A stretch of DNA of 64,000 nt from Robertkochia flava (GTDB lineage: Bacteria; Bacteroidota; Bacteroidia; Flavobacteriales; Flavobacteriaceae), in contig NZ_JAINZT010000006.1 of NCBI RefSeq assembly GCF_020166515.1, positions 124,001 through 188,000 of the forward strand, given 5' to 3'. Positions 3,945 to 26,684 of the stretch are shown here, one piece after another; the first letter of the stretch is position 1, and every line of letters starts with the position of its first letter. Both the position numbers and the translations under genes were made by a program. The notes under the pieces were generated by a model, which was not told where the DNA came from, did not search any database, and worked only from the letters and a program-made list of their open reading frames with translations.

Positions 3945-5129
3945 ATGAACGCGATACTAGTTATTAACTCCGGTAGCTCCTCCATCAAACTTCAACTGAT
4001 AAAAATGCCCAGTGAAAGTGTGGTAGCCTCGGGGCTTATCGAGCGTATAGGCCTGGAGAATTCGGCCCTGCACCTGCAAACGGGCAAGCATAAGATCTCC
4101 AGGGAGCTCAGCATCCCTGATCACGAAACCGGGTTAAAAGAAATTACCCGGTTACTCATGGATGAAGAACAGGGGGTTATCAGAAATACCTCGGAAATCA
4201 CTGCAGTGGGCCACAGGGTGGTACATGGGGGAAGCGCATTTTCGGATACCATTGAGGTGAATGAGGAGGTTAAAAAGAGCATCAGGGATCTTTTTTCTCT
4301 TGCTCCCCTGCATAATCCGCCGAATTACAAGGGTATAGAAGTGGCAGAAAAAATATTCCCGGAAGCAAAACAGGTGGCGGTTTTTGATACGGCTTTTCAT
4401 CAAAGCATACCCACCAGGGCTAAAAAATATGCCATTCCGAATGAGTTTCACGACAAATACGAGTTACAGGTCTATGGATTTCATGGAATAAGCCATAAGT
4501 ATGTATCAGAAAAGGCAATGGAATTCCTGAAAAAGCCCAAGGGAAAATTTATAACCATTCACTTAGGGAACGGCTGCAGCATAACTGCTGTCAGGAACGG
4601 GAAGAGTATCGACCATTCCCTTGGATTTGGTCCTGTAAATGGCCTGATCATGGGAACGCGCAGTGGCGATATCGATCAGTCTGTGATCTTTTATATGATC
4701 GAAAAACTGGGGTATTCTGCGGCCCAGGTGAGTGAAATACTTCATAAGAAAAGTGGGATGCTCGGGCTAACCGGTTATAGTGATCTCAGGGATATTGAGG
4801 AGCGCGCAGCCGGGGGAGATGAAATGTGTCAGCTAGCCCTTGAGATGAACGCCTACCGGATTAAAAAATACATAGGAGCCTATATTGCCGCGATGAATGG
4901 AGTGGATGCTATCGTGTTTACTGCCGGAATAGGGGAGAACAGCGATGTATTGAGAGCCCTGGTATGCAAGGATATGGATTACCTGGGAATTACCCTGGAA
5001 CCGTATAAAAATAACATTCGGGCCAAGGAGCCCAGGGTGATCAGTAAAGACAATTCCAAGGTCACCGTCCTGGTGGTTCCCACTAATGAAGAACTGGAGA
5101 TCGCCAAGCAGGTGAACGCCTTACTGTAG
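3945..5129 (+). CDS. ackA: acetate kinase
   Basis: Transfers phosphate between acetyl phosphate and ADP, giving ATP and acetate, and completes the Pta-AckA pathway. The 394-residue length is typical. The N-terminal NSGSSSIK phosphate-binding motif, the VGHRVVHGG motif, the FDTAFH motif, GNGCSITA and the C-terminal TAGIGENS signature are all present. It is co-transcribed with pta (21-base gap). No terminator is obvious directly after the stop; the 2.1-kb repeat-rich gene-free region begins there. Confidence 0.96.
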   Translation: MNAILVINSGSSSIKLQLIKMPSESVVASGLIERIGLENSALHLQTGKHKISRELSIPDHETGLKEITRLLMDEEQGVIRNTSEITAVGHRVVHGGSAFSDTIEVNEEVKKSIRDLFSLAPLHNPPNYKGIEVAEKIFPEAKQVAVFDTAFHQSIPTRAKKYAIPNEFHDKYELQVYGFHGISHKYVSEKAMEFLKKPKGKFITIHLGNGCSITAVRNGKSIDHSLGFGPVNGLIMGTRSGDIDQSVIFYMIEKLGYSAAQVSEILHKKSGMLGLTGYSDLRDIEERAAGGDEMCQLALEMNAYRIKKYIGAYIAAMNGVDAIVFTAGIGENSDVLRALVCKDMDYLGITLEPYKNNIRAKEPRVISKDNSKVTVLVVPTNEELEIAKQVNALL

Positions 5130-5200
5130 TTGATATTACACTTCACCGTTAGAACTCCGGTATGTAAAGAGGTAACCCGGCTGGTGGGTAAATAGGCAGA

Positions 5201-5250
5201 TAGGTAAGTAGGTAAGTAGGTAAGTAGGTAAGTAGGTAAGTAGGTAAGTA
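5201..5250. repeat. 8-bp tandem repeat (TAGGTAAG, about 6 copies)
   Basis: Six uninterrupted TAGGTAAG units plus two bases, inside the first composite repeat. The other five composite units have only one to three related units here, so this copy looks expanded by slippage. Confidence 0.9.
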
Positions 5251-5273
5251 GGGTGGAGTCGTAAAGTCGTAAA

Positions 5274-5293
5274 CCTGCCTGCCGGCAGGCAGG
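5274..5293. repeat. 20-bp perfect palindrome (CCTGCC/GGCAGG type)
   Basis: A perfect inverted repeat with half-site CCTGCCTGCC. Shorter forms (CCTGCC.../GGCAGG) recur in every composite unit of the array, for example near 5819, 5990, 6190, 6522 and 6833. It could form a strong hairpin in either strand. Confidence 0.85.
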
Positions 5294-5494
5294 GTCGTGA
5301 AGTCGTAAACCTTGCAGCCGGCAGGATGTTAGCGTCGGGAAGATGAAGCAGCCCTTGATCCATCTATAATTTATCATCTATAATCCCTTACCTCGTACCT
5401 CCGTACCTCCGTACCTTCGTAACCTCGAACCCAAAAAATTACCAAATAACTCAATAACAGCACTTAACAACAATTAAGACTATTCTTACAACAA

Positions 5495-5663
5495 TAATTT
5501 CCAAAACCCATGATGTGAATCTATATTAGAGGTGTTGTTAGTTCAATACTGATAAACAAGCCCCAAGATGTTGTCAGTTAGCATACCCCAAATTGATCTC
5601 AATAACTAACCTACATTATGAGTTACGAAAAAAAAGTTCCGGTGCCCCCCGGAACTTTTTTTT
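5495..5663 (+). ncRNA. candidate structured small RNA, copy 1
   Basis: This region has no reading frame but is clearly related to 7007-7183. Shared parts are an upstream block with ACTATTCTTACAACA, a TAATTT -7-like box (5495-5502), GTTGTTAGTT, ACTGAT, GCCCCAA, GATGTT, TCAGT and a 3' terminator. Stem GTTAGTT (5537-5543) pairs with AACTAAC (5604-5610). Inner stem ACTGAT (5548-5553) pairs with GTCAGT (5573-5578) and encloses GCCCC. A terminator hairpin (5635-5642 with 5649-5656, loop TGCCCC, T-run to 5663) ends the unit. The predicted start is near 5505. I do not recognise a known family; assigning it to 6S-Flavo or another Rfam family would need a covariance-model search. Confidence 0.55.
5635..5663 (+). 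terminator. rho-independent terminator of small-RNA copy 1
   Basis: An 8-bp stem, AGTTCCGG/CCGGAACT, with a C-rich loop TGCCCC, preceded by an A-run and followed by eight T residues. Confidence 0.85.
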
Positions 5664-5710
5664 GATGCCTACCCGGCGGCAGGCAGGCTTGTGCCTCCGT
5701 AACTTTATTA

Positions 5711-5752
5711 TGGAGATTGCCGCGTCGGCCCGAAGGCCTCCTTGCAATGACA
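5711..5752. repeat. REP-like palindromic element (GGAGATTGCC type), copy 1
   Basis: GGAGATTGCCGCGTC followed by GGCC..GGCC and a CTTGCAATGACAG tail. Related elements lie near 6366-6409 and 6680-6723, in the form GGAGATTGCCACGTCCCGC with an inverted-repeat core (GTCCCGC..GCGGGAC). These look like the dispersed palindromic repeats common in bacterial intergenic DNA. Confidence 0.6.
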
Positions 5753-6365
5753 GCAGTCAGGGTGGCAAATAGGCAGATAGGTAAATAGGGTGAAGTCGTA
5801 AAGTTGTGAAGTCGTAAACCTGCCAGCCGGCAGGATGTTAGCGTCGGGAAGATGAAGCAGCCCTCTCATCCATCTATAATTTATCATCGATCATCTATAA
5901 TCCATAATCCCTTACCTCGTACCCTCGTACCTTCGTTGCAGGTTGGTAAATAGGCGGATAGGTGAATAGGGTGAAGTCGTAAAGTCGTAAACCTGCCATC
6001 CCTTACGGCAGGAAGTTAGAGTCGGGAAGGTGAAATAGCCCTCTCATCCATCTATAATTTATCATCGATCATCTATAATCCATAATCCCTTACCTCGTAC
6101 CCTCGTACCTTCGTGGCTGTACAACAGGCAGGTTGGCAAATAGGTAAATAGGCGGATAGGTGAATAGGGTGGAGTCGTAAAGTCGTAAACCTGCCATCCC
6201 TTACGGCAGGATGTTAAAGTCGGAAAGATGAAGCAGCCCTCTCATCCATCTATAATTTATCATCGATCATCTATAATCTATAATCCATAATCCCTTACCT
6301 CGTAACTTCGTACCCCTGCTTGCATGGCTGCGGGCAGGCAGGTCCGTACCTCCGTACCTTTAATA

Positions 6366-6409
6366 TGGAGATTGCCACGTCCCGCAAGGCGGGACTCGCA
6401 AAGTCGAAC
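6366..6409. repeat. REP-like palindromic element, copy 2
   Basis: GGAGATTGCCACGTCCCGC, then AAG, then GCGGGAC and CTCGCAAAG. The CCCGC/GCGGG core can form a hairpin. It is nearly identical to the element at 6680-6723. Confidence 0.6.
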
Positions 6410-6679
6410 TGTTTCAGAATATATGCCTCGTTCCCCTGTCTTCTTGGTTGTACAACAGGCAGGTTGGCAAATAGGTAAATAGGTAAATGGATAAATAGGG
6501 TGAAGTAGTGAAGTCGTAAACCTGGCAGCCGGCAGGATGTTAAAGTCGGGAAGATGAATCAACCCTGGAATCCATCTATAATTTATCATCGATCATCTAT
6601 AATCCCTTACCTCGTACCCTCGTACCCCTGCCTGCATGGCTGCGGTCAGGCAGGTCCGTACCTTTGTACCTTTAATAGG

Positions 6680-6723
6680 GAGATTGCCACGTCCCGCAAG
6701 GCGGGACTCGCAAAGACGAACTG
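6680..6723. repeat. REP-like palindromic element, copy 3
   Basis: Nearly identical to copy 2 and followed by the same GACGAACTGTTTC-type sequence. This suggests the block from about 6366 to 6560 was duplicated to about 6680-6880. Confidence 0.6.
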
Positions 6724-7006
6724 TTTCGTAGTAGGTGCTTCGTACCCCTGCCTTCTTGGCTGTACAACAGGCAGGTTGGCAAATAGGTAAATAGGCGGAT
6801 AGGTGAATAGGGTGGAGTCGTAAAGTCGTAAACCTGCCATCCCTTACGGCAGGATGTTAAAGTCGGAAAGATGAAGCAGCCCTGGAATCCATCTATAATT
6901 TATCAACTATAATCTATAATCCCTTACCTCGTAACTTCGTACCTTAAAAAAACACCAAATAACTCACTAACAATACTTCACAACAAATAAGGCTATTCTT
7001 ACAACA

Positions 7007-7183
7007 TAAATTTTCGCATCCCTGGGTGGGGTGGTATATTAGCAGTGTTGTTAGTTTGACTACTGATTACAACGCCCCAAAGATGTTATCAGTAAATCAT
7101 AACCCGGATCCAAAATGAATAGTTAACCTGCTTTGGATTACAAAAAAAAAGAGTTCCAGTGCCCCCTGGAACTCTTTTTTTTT
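7007..7183 (+). ncRNA. candidate structured small RNA, copy 2
   Basis: Diverged copy of 5495-5663 on the far side of the repeat array, in the same orientation. GTTAGTT (7050-7056) pairs with AGTTAAC (7121-7127) using two G-U pairs where copy 1 has Watson-Crick pairs. ACTGAT (7062-7067) pairs perfectly with ATCAGT (7088-7093), where copy 1 has one U-G pair. AGCAG (7041-7045) can extend the outer stem with CTGCT (7129-7133). The GCCCCAA loop and the TGCCCC terminator loop are kept. A TAAATTTT -7-like box is at 7007-7014. Keeping pairing despite sequence drift argues for a functional RNA. Confidence 0.55.
7151..7183 (+). terminator. rho-independent terminator of small-RNA copy 2
   Basis: A 9-bp stem, GAGTTCCAG/CTGGAACTC, loop TGCCCC, A-run before and nine T residues after. 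On the other strand it could also stop fumC transcription, whose stop codon is at 7233. Confidence 0.85.
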
Positions 7184-7232
7184 GTTGGTATGGCTATAAA
7201 GCGAAAACTGCTTTTCAGAGATTCGCGTTACT

Positions 7233-8630
7233 TCAGGAATTGGATCCTACCATATTTTCCGGTTTCACCCATTCGTCAAATTTTTCTGCAGTAAGGTATC
7301 CAAGGTCAAGGGCAGCCTCTTTGAGGGTGGTTCCTTCCTCGTGAGCCTTATTGGCGATCTCTGCGGCTTTATAATACCCGATCTTTGTATTCAGGGCCGT
7401 AACCAGCATCAGGGAATTGTTCACCAACTCCTTAATTCGCTTATGGTTAGGTTCGATACCTGCTACACAGTTCCTTTCGAAACTCACACAGGCATCTCCG
7501 ATCAGGCGGGCAGATTGCAGCAGGTTGGCCGCCATCATGGGTTTAAACACATTAAGCTCGTAATGTCCCTGTGTACCTCCAACGGTTACGGCAACATCGT
7601 TACCCATGACCTGGGCGCAAACCATGGTCAATGCTTCGCTTTGTGTTGGGTTAACCTTTCCGGGCATGATAGAACTACCGGGTTCATTAGCTGGAATAAT
7701 GATCTCACCGATTCCGGAGCGTGGTCCGGAGGCCAGCATTCTGATGTCGTTAGCGATCTTATTAAGCGATACTGCAAGCTGTTTCAGGGCGCCGTGAGTT
7801 TCCACAATAGCGTCGTGGGCAGCAAGGGCTTCAAATTTATTCTCAGCGGTTTTAAAGGGCAGTTCAGTGAACTTTGCGATATAATTGGCCACTACTTCCG
7901 CATAGCCTTCAGGAGTATTAATGCCCGTTCCTACAGCTGTACCACCAAGGGCGAGTTCAGAAAGATGCTCCAGGGTGTTGTTCAGTGCCTTAAGACCATG
8001 GTCGAGTTGAGATACATATCCTGAGAATTCCTGCCCCAGGGTTAGGGGAGTGGCATCCATAAGGTGGGTACGCCCGATCTTAACCACATTCCTGAATTCT
8101 TCCGATTTCTTCGCCAGCGTATCTCTCAAAAGGGTAACCCCTGGAATGGTGGTTTCCACGATCATTTTATAAGCGGCAATATGCATCCCGGTTGGAAAGG
8201 TGTCGTTAGACGATTGTGATTTATTGACATCGTCATTGGGCTGAAGGGTTTTTTCGCCTTCTCCTATGGTTTTACCGGCTATCTGGTGTGCCCTGTTTGC
8301 AATAACTTCATTTACGTTCATATTGCTTTGGGTACCCGAACCGGTTTGCCAGATCACCAACGGAAACTGGTCATCGTGTTTTCCTGCCAGGATCTCATCA
8401 CAGGCCGCTGCGATAAGGTCGCGTTTTTCTTCAGAAAGAACTCCAAGTTCACAATTGGTATAGGCTGCAGCCTTTTTCAGAAAGGCAAAACCATAGACCA
8501 CTTCAAGGGGCATGGAGGCCGGGGCCCCGATCTTAAAGTTGTTTCGGGAGCGTTCGGTTTGGGCACCCCACAATTTATCGGCGGGTACTTTTACCTCTCC
8601 CATAGTATCTTTCTCTATTCTGTATTCCAT
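7233..8630 (-). CDS. fumC: class II fumarate hydratase
   Basis: Reversibly hydrates fumarate to L-malate in the TCA cycle, without an iron-sulfur cluster. The 465-residue protein contains the family signature [11 protein letters not shown], the SSNDTFPT block and the [10 protein letters not shown] block. I start at the ATG at 8630 ([16 protein letters not shown]), which matches the usual N-terminus; the frame runs 24 codons further upstream but only with non-family sequence. The gene is single and divergent from the small membrane protein at 8900. Confidence 0.95.
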
Positions 8631-8899
8631 AGGATATATTGATTTTTTGTTGCACAAATTTACATTTTTTACAAGCCATTTCCGCCTTAAAACAGGGTTC
8701 ATTTTTAAGGATGGAAAGGAAAGGGTAAACGGCGGATTTAGAATGAAGTACCTGCAATTCCAAAGGGTTTGAGGTGGGCAGGAAAGCCTGTGGTGGCAGC
8801 AGAAGATTCGCAGAACCCCAGAAATAATTCATGAAATACTGGGCATAAATAAACAAATCTGGTTATCTTTGACGCGAATTCAGAAAATTTCCGGAAACT

Positions 8900-25724: not shown

Positions 25725-26684
25725 TTAAAAGGATTTATTCCTTTTCTTATTTCTCTTCTGTTTTTTAAGAGCCTTCTTCTCGAATGAAGACATATTGTCT
25801 ATTTTCTTTTTCGGGTCCTTGTGAAAGTCCAGGCGGTACGCCACCCCCATCTCTCCGAAATACCTCCCCGGAGTATCCTTTATGTTCAGGCCACCGGAAA
25901 GATCTACCTGCAGGTTTTTATTTAATAAGTGGGCAGCCCCAAGGCGAAATACTCCGTCTCCGTAAAAATCACTTTTAAACCCCTGGTGTTCCGCAAATAA
26001 AGACCAGCGCCCGTTACTAAGGGCATGGGTTAGCGTGATCACATAGTTCAATGCAGGATCATCGCCGGTAAATTTATCATAAATGAGGTTGGAAACCAAA
26101 ACCCATCGTGGGGTTAGCTGGTGTTGTGCCGCCAGCATAACCTTTGGGCTTACGGTAGGTTCATTGGGAGGGAGGAAAGGGTTGTCTCCAAAATTAAAAT
26201 TTGCCCCGGCATAAATGGCAATGGCCGGTATCAGGTTCTTCCATTGAAAAGAATTGTTGGCCTTCCAGCTGTAGATGTTGGGTTTGCTGCGCTCTTCATT
26301 TTTAAAAGGGTCATAGATCAGGTATTTTGCTCCTACCGTATTGTGCAGGAAATTAGTGCGGTTGTAGCTGGATGCCGGCAGGGTGGAATTGTCTGTAACC
26401 TGTTCATAGGCGGCACTACCATCTATAATGATCTCCAGTTGTTCAAAAAACAATCCGAACCGGAAGACATAATCCAACCCGAATTGATCAGCGCTGGTTC
26501 GTAGTCCAGCATGTTCCCTGTTTTCATAAAAAAAACCGTTTTCTCCCTGTATAACCCCTGTTCCAACACCGTAGGCGCTGTAGGAGGCACCGGGCCGGTT
26601 GGAGTTAATGGTATTGGTGTACTGGGAATAGCCGGGAAAGGCAAGCAGAACAAGAAGCAGGAGGCAGGTATATGGGCTTTTCAT
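25725..26684 (-). CDS. secreted/outer-membrane protein of the phenol_MetA_deg-like type
   Basis: 319 residues with a signal peptide (MKSPYTCLLLLVLLAFPGYSQ) and a body of alternating aromatic/polar strands typical of an outer-membrane barrel. The opening block INSNRPGASYSAYGVG and closing GEMGVAYRL recall Bacteroidota proteins often labelled as transporter or MetA-pathway of phenol degradation. The C-terminal 35 residues are extremely basic (KKALKKQKRNKKRNKSF), unusual for a barrel. I start at the ATG at 26684, since the upstream extension is not signal-like. The GNAT-like gene follows after 12 bases. Function unknown. Confidence 0.65.
   Translation of the reverse strand: MKSPYTCLLLLVLLAFPGYSQYTNTINSNRPGASYSAYGVGTGVIQGENGFFYENREHAGLRTSADQFGLDYVFRFGLFFEQLEIIIDGSAAYEQVTDNSTLPASSYNRTNFLHNTVGAKYLIYDPFKNEERSKPNIYSWKANNSFQWKNLIPAIAIYAGANFNFGDNPFLPPNEPTVSPKVMLAAQHQLTPRWVLVSNLIYDKFTGDDPALNYVITLTHALSNGRWSLFAEHQGFKSDFYGDGVFRLGAAHLLNKNLQVDLSGGLNIKDTPGRYFGEMGVAYRLDFHKDPKKKIDNMSSFEKKALKKQKRNKKRNKSF

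Follow-up and report, generated by a model that had tools for sequence, protein, structure and literature searches.

A dispersed family of predicted C-rich small RNAs and its probable LytTR-type regulator in Robertkochia and other Flavobacteriaceae

Results

Two diverged RNA gene copies between ackA and fumC

Robertkochia flava is a marine bacterium. The window analyzed here is a 64,000-nt stretch of its contig NZ_JAINZT010000006.1. Between ackA (3945-5129) and fumC (7233-8702, opposite strand), both supported by Pfam, it carries two diverged non-coding gene copies in the same orientation, A (5468-5664) and B (6981-7185), which are separated by an intergenic repeat array. The following elements were assigned to them:

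5468..5493, + strand: direct-repeat box of A, CAACA-N16-CAACA, a probable LytTR response-regulator site judging from spacing statistics
5522..5529, + strand: -7 promoter box of A, TATATTAG, exactly 28 nt after the direct-repeat box
5530..5664, + strand: predicted RNA of copy A, with its start placed a few nt past the -7 box and its end at the terminator T-run
5548..5578, + strand: inner hairpin of A, ACTGAT 5548-5553 with GTCAGT 5573-5578 and a GCCCC loop at 5560-5564, supported by covariation
5628..5663, + strand: predicted intrinsic terminator of A, from the inverted-repeat listing
6981..7006, + strand: direct-repeat box of B, CAACA-N16-CAACA, recognized in the sequence
7035..7042, + strand: -7 promoter box of B, TATATTAG, 28 nt after the direct-repeat box
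7043..7185, + strand: predicted RNA of copy B, with a putative start and its end at the terminator
7062..7093, + strand: inner hairpin of B, ACTGAT 7062-7067 with ATCAGT 7088-7093 and a GCCCC loop at 7074-7078, supported by covariation
7140..7185, + strand: predicted intrinsic terminator of B, from the inverted-repeat listing

With B as DNA query, A was retrieved at an E-value of 1.6e-16 and 75% identity, and local alignment of the transcribed parts scored 102, compared with 24 for the best of 200 letter shuffles. Common to both copies are CTATTCTTACAACA, TATATTAG (5522-5529; 7035-7042), ACTGAT with GTCAGT or ATCAGT, and GCCCC, and both end in perfect terminator hairpins. A preliminary description of this DNA had proposed two same-orientation non-coding segments sharing an upstream block, a -7-like box, a core and a terminator; these indeed lie where it placed them, with a similarity far above chance that starts farther upstream than was noted, at about 5433/6946. 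Within the upstream block CTATTCTTACAACA is shared, but the extra leading A of that description is a G in B, and the block is one of the two halves of an element built on a repeat, CAACA, at 5468 and 5489 in A and at 6981 and 7002 in B; the other half had been missed. The statement that no coding frame explains the conservation agrees with our by-eye reading, in which the longest ORFs span 15-38 codons and are not alike. Compared with shuffled sequences, folding gave z-scores of -5.3 and -6.6 for A and B, terminators included. Scanning the window revealed no tRNA, tmRNA or Rfam family.

The repeat array extends over window positions 5177-6950 and consists of 8-nt (GGTAAATA-like) and longer units, with copies of 50-270 nt. 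Letters resembling this array also flank the copies at 107 and 109 kb of the contig.

Sibling copies in Robertkochia

A DNA search of the R. flava genome located five type I copies within 46 kb of one contig, at 85.5, 107.5, 109.1, 129.5 (copy A) and 131.0 kb. The diverged copies first described are real, but the genome holds five of them and not two. The DNA search found nine further copies in four genomes of the same genus (R. sediminum, R. marina, R. solimangrovi and R. sp. 3YJGBD-33), and reading around the matches gave more. Each predicted RNA is about 125-150 nt long and, judging from sequence, ends at an intrinsic terminator. The 107 kb copy of R. flava occupies the same gnd-like/pirin-like site as one R. 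marina copy. R. sediminum keeps the genes hutI-pta-ackA-fumC (79-89% protein identity), and no box was found in this stretch, including the ackA-fumC gap of about 600 nt. Because the gene order is kept without a box, the placement of A and B appears to be lineage-specific, and the two copies are best read as a lineage-specific addition to the sibling family.

A fixed promoter module

LytTR proteins bind direct repeats of 9 bp, spaced by 12 bp, in front of promoters, according to the available part of PMC6193735, and the sites have a 21-bp period (available parts of PMC6193735 and PMC10602386); AgrA acts near -60, as given in the accessible part of PMC4227749. The copies analyzed here have the same period of 21 bp. 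All 14 copies that were found by the transcribed part alone, distributed over five genomes, carry CMACR-N16-CAACA exactly 28 nt before the -7 box, with CMACR 54 nt and CAACA 33 nt before that box. The same layout is shared by 18 entries (17 type I and one type II) collected with a pattern that presupposes the box; this set omits the 107-kb copy, the first 60 nt of which are identical to the 109 kb copy. A shorter box pattern gave 30 matches in the five Robertkochia genomes, compared with 4 for a reversed-pattern control, and TAnnTT was present at +28 in 26 of these, at +29 in one and absent in three. Seven of the eight matches in R. flava are the five type I copies, a type II copy and the leader of a kinase gene. 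The eighth, at 26248-26280 of the window on the minus strand, has no -7 box.

The regulator-kinase locus

In R. flava and the four relatives, a response regulator with REC and LytTR domains (Pfam) is encoded directly upstream of one copy. The locus order is a UbiA (menA-like) gene, the regulator, a type I RNA, a type II RNA and a kinase, and reading of ORFs by eye further gave menB-like and menC-like neighbors. The kinase contains HisKA_2 and HATPase domains (Pfam); its N-terminal half appears TPR-like by eye, with no TPR family above its cut-off. The locus has two of the features expected of a LytTR two-component system with regulatory-RNA output, a LytTR-domain regulator with an adjoining kinase and repeats about 21 bp apart before a promoter. 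In R. flava the regulator gene lies about 44-46 kb from A and B, adjoining another sibling copy. In R. solimangrovi the contig stops just past the type I copy; a different contig of that genome carries two further boxes. The direct-repeat box also precedes the kinase gene.

Kinase leaders with the box include L031:16436-16560 and those of Galbibacter (L128, L130 and L132). A terminator-like hairpin, AAAGCCTAAA..TTTAGGCTTT, occurs in seven of the eight kinase leaders compared, R. sediminum being the exception, and is conserved between two genera. In some sibling RNAs the GCCCUAAAUG loop is a possible pairing partner for the 3' arm of this hairpin, which suggests attenuation at the kinase leader.

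Box and regulator across the Flavobacteriaceae

The regulator was scored as present at E<=1e-60 in 22 of 120 genomes of the family, and because of this threshold genomes scored as lacking it may hold diverged regulators. When the R. flava genome is excluded, 19 of the remaining 21 have a full site downstream of the regulator; these are partly the same species as a second collection of named regulator loci, of which 80 were kept out of 274 found, four of them from Robertkochia. Of these 80 loci, 68 carry one or more full sites downstream of the regulator, 137 sites in all, and none carries a full site upstream of it.

The spacing in the 80 named loci is precise. Among half-site gaps of 6-30, that of 16 accounts for 149 cases and no other for more than 5; among gaps of 10-49 to the -7 box, that of 28 accounts for 125 cases and no other for more than 4. 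The half-site gap of 16 was not found on the reverse strand of these loci. The 12 box-negative loci comprise 11 from Arenibacter (two of them with less than 450 nt downstream) and one from Maribacter litoralis, where the gap is 29. In the Arenibacter loci L142, L148, L157, L162, L173, L175, L196, L199 and L200, the regulator is kept and no full box was found in about 4 kb downstream, which makes them a natural case of loss or rewiring.

Box enrichment is confined to genomes with the regulator: the pattern gave 147 matches vs. 26 for the control in 21 regulator-bearing genomes, and 31 vs. 24 in 20 genomes without it. When one locus per genome was considered, for 30 of the 36 genomes with matches, the -7 box was found at +28 in 11 of 19 loci from genomes with the regulator and in 0 of 11 from those without.

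Related RNAs and other genes preceded by the box

An RNA model built from 16 Robertkochia copies (R1) was run over 299 genomes of the family and matched 23 of these at E<=0.01. A full box accompanied the match only in two genomes of the own genus, in G282, G034 and G242 (E-values of at most about 3e-6) and in G177 (0.0055). In the other 17 there was no box near the match, and most of these look like chance terminator matches. A second model, built from 12 RNAs of other genera (R2), matched eight of 120 genomes, all eight among the 22 with the regulator; three of them had supplied training sequences. Since R2 does not recover the Robertkochia copies, homology between these and the RNAs of other genera rests on promoter, motif order and loop and not on a model.

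Among 20 box sites in four other genera, chosen by consensus, the -7 box is at +28 in 19. Many of these sites precede RNAs of the form CAGTGTAATTAAGTGATAGTG...CCCCAAATC...ACTTAACC...CCCAAATC...CCTAC, which echoes copy A, whose second stretch is ACCCCAAATTGATCTCAATAACTAACCTAC. A TTAAGT/ACTTAA stem in this set reaches 95.8% pairing, but the changes within it are one-sided and no different from those in shuffles, so it provides no evidence of covariation. A second RNA class, consisting of the 20-mer CATTTTCATATAGTGTTCTC and a terminator, follows the same promoter module in 45 of the 80 named loci (e.g., L141:4821 onward) and was absent from the eight Robertkochia sources checked. Rfam gave no match at gathering in 20 regulator-locus sources and 20 further sources that included dispersed sites, and none at E<=0.01 on four loci.

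Some boxes precede open reading frames. At L229, a box with the -7 box at +28 is followed, from 92 nt past the box start, by an ORF of 121 codons that reads as a response-regulator receiver domain. ORFs of 33-35 codons encoding similar peptides (e.g., ..IQVYRNEFLSGIVMLTKKLFML) follow box promoters in L265, L274 and L247, the last without a -7 box at +28. As such similar-peptide ORFs occur in other genera, the regulon may include a small protein, and the receiver-domain-like gene (L229) and the 33-codon ORF (L265, L274) indicate that it is not purely RNA.

Two observations concern individual copies. In other genera, several dispersed copies (L076, L255, L267 and L272) are followed by letters that look alike by eye, and each seems to adjoin a convergent gene of one kind at its 3' end. 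L081 (genus g147) gave a weak R1 match without a box, with the motifs GCCCCAAG, CCCC and AAACCTAC, and is possibly a relative under other control.

A covarying hairpin with an invariant GCCC loop

The 16 aligned Robertkochia copies, a set from which the nearly identical 107 kb copy, a degenerate copy and a type II copy were excluded, have a consensus structure of an inner hairpin and a terminator. For covariation, five RNAs (from four named Galbibacter species or strains and G282) were added to give 21 rows. The G. marinus RNA, to which that of G034 is identical, has a different loop and was therefore not included; G282 and G034 share a genus. With arms trimmed by hand, which favors structure, the inner hairpin was 88.4% paired in the 21 rows, and its covariation was 0.373 vs. 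0.181 in shuffled alignments (0 of 500 as high) and at most 0.131 when slid. The inner stem with pairing-preserving differences, originally noted for A and B, is thereby borne out in an alignment of homologues, where it covaries above shuffles across 21 chosen sequences. The outer stem that was described with it did not withstand comparison, since 67.6% of the cells were paired in the 16 copies vs. 65.0% in shuffles, 61 of 500 of which scored as high. Of the two C-rich loops reported earlier, the inner one is conserved, with GCCC invariant in 21 of 21 rows; the one in the terminator is not characteristic of the family, several copies having other loops there.

Discussion

Proposed circuit and alternative explanations

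At the level of sequence, sibling genes, a fixed promoter module, co-occurrence with the regulator, a covarying C-loop hairpin and terminators are all apparent. These features point strongly to control of the sibling RNAs by the regulator; its binding and activating role would follow by analogy with known LytTR proteins, and the copies are presumably transcribed. We consider it probable that the siblings, A and B among them, are C-rich regulatory RNAs whose expression is driven by the sensor pair. In such a circuit, the activated LytTR regulator would bind two half-sites 21 bp apart upstream of the -7 box and recruit RNA polymerase to the promoter of each sibling RNA, and the box before the kinase gene would give feedback. 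The covarying hairpin would present GCCC(C/U), often with a second C-rich CCC-RRR stretch, and several copies would raise the RNA dose. The RNA would most likely act in trans by pairing of its C-rich loop with G-rich mRNA stretches.

For the mode of action, the GCCC loop may pair with such stretches or the repeated C-rich elements may bind a protein. In the latter case, the RNAs would be regulator-controlled sponges whose repeated CCC-RRR elements titrate an RNA-binding protein, which we regard as the less probable option, though a serious one. The pattern CCC[CT]?RRR occurs 43 times in 28 RNAs, compared with a shuffle mean of 11.3 (maximum 18 of 200), a surplus that is partly due to shared descent because the RNA sequences are related. 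Two or more such motifs are present in 17 of the 28 RNAs, and GCCCYAAA is also found in the type II RNA of some species. Loop complements are not enriched in the R. flava genome, where one simple pattern for perfect 10-nt complements matched 21 sites and its reversed control 42. Two of the 21 are antisense to sRNA copies and none is clearly in a 5' leader; one match near a start (L223) reads, by eye, as a lipoprotein signal peptide. Hfq, expected for an Hfq-dependent sRNA, gave no match in the R. flava genome with profile PF17209, which as a control matched five of 14 genomes. Against titration, only eight of the 16 Robertkochia copies carry two motifs, a candidate binding protein did not emerge, and a conserved loop is equally expected of a seed.

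It is rather unlikely that another regulator binds the box and the LytTR gene is merely a neighbor. The 11 Arenibacter loci without a downstream box would fit such an arrangement, but box and regulator co-occur across genomes, the box is also at the kinase promoter, and direct repeats of 21-bp period are those of LytTR proteins.

A still smaller probability is assigned to A and B having no regulatory function and being repeats that are either non-autonomous mobile elements or products of slippage (MITE-like, or belonging to the intergenic array). Sites of the copies differ between species, the R. sediminum ackA-fumC gap has no box, and A and B flank a repeat array; on the other hand, the promoter spacing and the hairpin persist where the rest of the sequence has diverged, no terminal inverted repeats bound the copies among the inverted repeats listed, and the box tracks the regulator across genera.

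That A and B are 6S RNA paralogs binding RNA polymerase is hardly credible. A resemblance to 6S-Flavo (RF01685), a structured RNA of the same bacterial group, lies in the hairpin, whose loop is open and C-rich, and in an outer pairing seen in A (fold) and B (by eye). Against this, Rfam gave no match in the window at gathering, the relaxed matches included no 6S family, the outer stem is unsupported, and the 6S-Flavo match of the genome (90.4 bits, over the cut-off) is at a separate locus on another contig. Of the preliminary description, the small structured RNA that has a promoter-like box and a terminator of its own is sustained by the sequence data, and the 6S-Flavo hint is not.

Comparison with known systems

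Regulation of a regulatory RNA by a LytTR-type protein is known in Firmicutes (RNAIII, VR-RNA, SpoZ), and the present sRNA family is undescribed in the literature covered, as far as the available parts of these sources go. In the RgaS-RgaR/SpoZ system of Clostridioides difficile, a VirR-type regulator directly activates an sRNA and key bases of the direct repeat are 21 bp apart (-51/-72); it differs in having one sRNA, an Agr-type kinase and a Firmicutes host, with no sibling family mentioned in the available part (PMC10602386). AgrA/RNAIII of S. aureus and VirR with VR-RNA, VirT and VirU of C. perfringens are likewise LytTR-type switches with regulatory-RNA output, but these are Agr-type quorum-sensing systems of another phylum, and the accessible parts mention no dispersed sibling family (PMC4227749, PMC10602386).

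FopS of Bacteroides thetaiotaomicron forms a large paralogous Bacteroidota sRNA family with intrinsic terminators; it differs in that its seed is a single-stranded 5' segment and its promoters are of the canonical sigma-ABfr type, with no LytTR link mentioned in the part available (PMC11697453). In place of a conserved single-stranded 5' seed followed by a terminator, the motif in the present RNAs is located in a covarying hairpin loop. They have no match in Rfam, which may not include FopS. Searches of the literature for LytTR with sRNA or small RNA in Bacteroidetes or Flavobacteriaceae, with most subscription journals outside their scope, found no such family or circuit, and the available parts of PMC10197871 and PMC5395568 contain no such LytTR-sRNA circuit.

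Two further comparisons come from well-studied RNAs. The Qrr RNAs of vibrios are several sibling sRNAs under one response regulator, with LuxO/sigma-54 promoters and Hfq; the likeness to the present family lies in siblings under one response regulator and implies no homology. C-rich loops are also found in RNAIII.

Implications

A wider picture can be proposed only tentatively: in much of the Flavobacteriaceae, a LytTR pair beside menaquinone-type genes might have a mainly RNA output, in which expanding, dispersed siblings with CCCCAAAU-like repeats and a fixed promoter module serve as a tunable RNA sink or a multi-target silencer. In our judgment, less work has been devoted to regulatory RNAs and their control in Bacteroidota than in model bacteria. 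The sRNA family described here comes with a likely regulator, kinase and binding site, and with single-base precision of spacing across many genera. If the proposed circuit is true, the LytTR-to-RNA theme of Firmicutes would extend to another phylum, and sibling sRNAs would be seen multiplying around a regulator locus.
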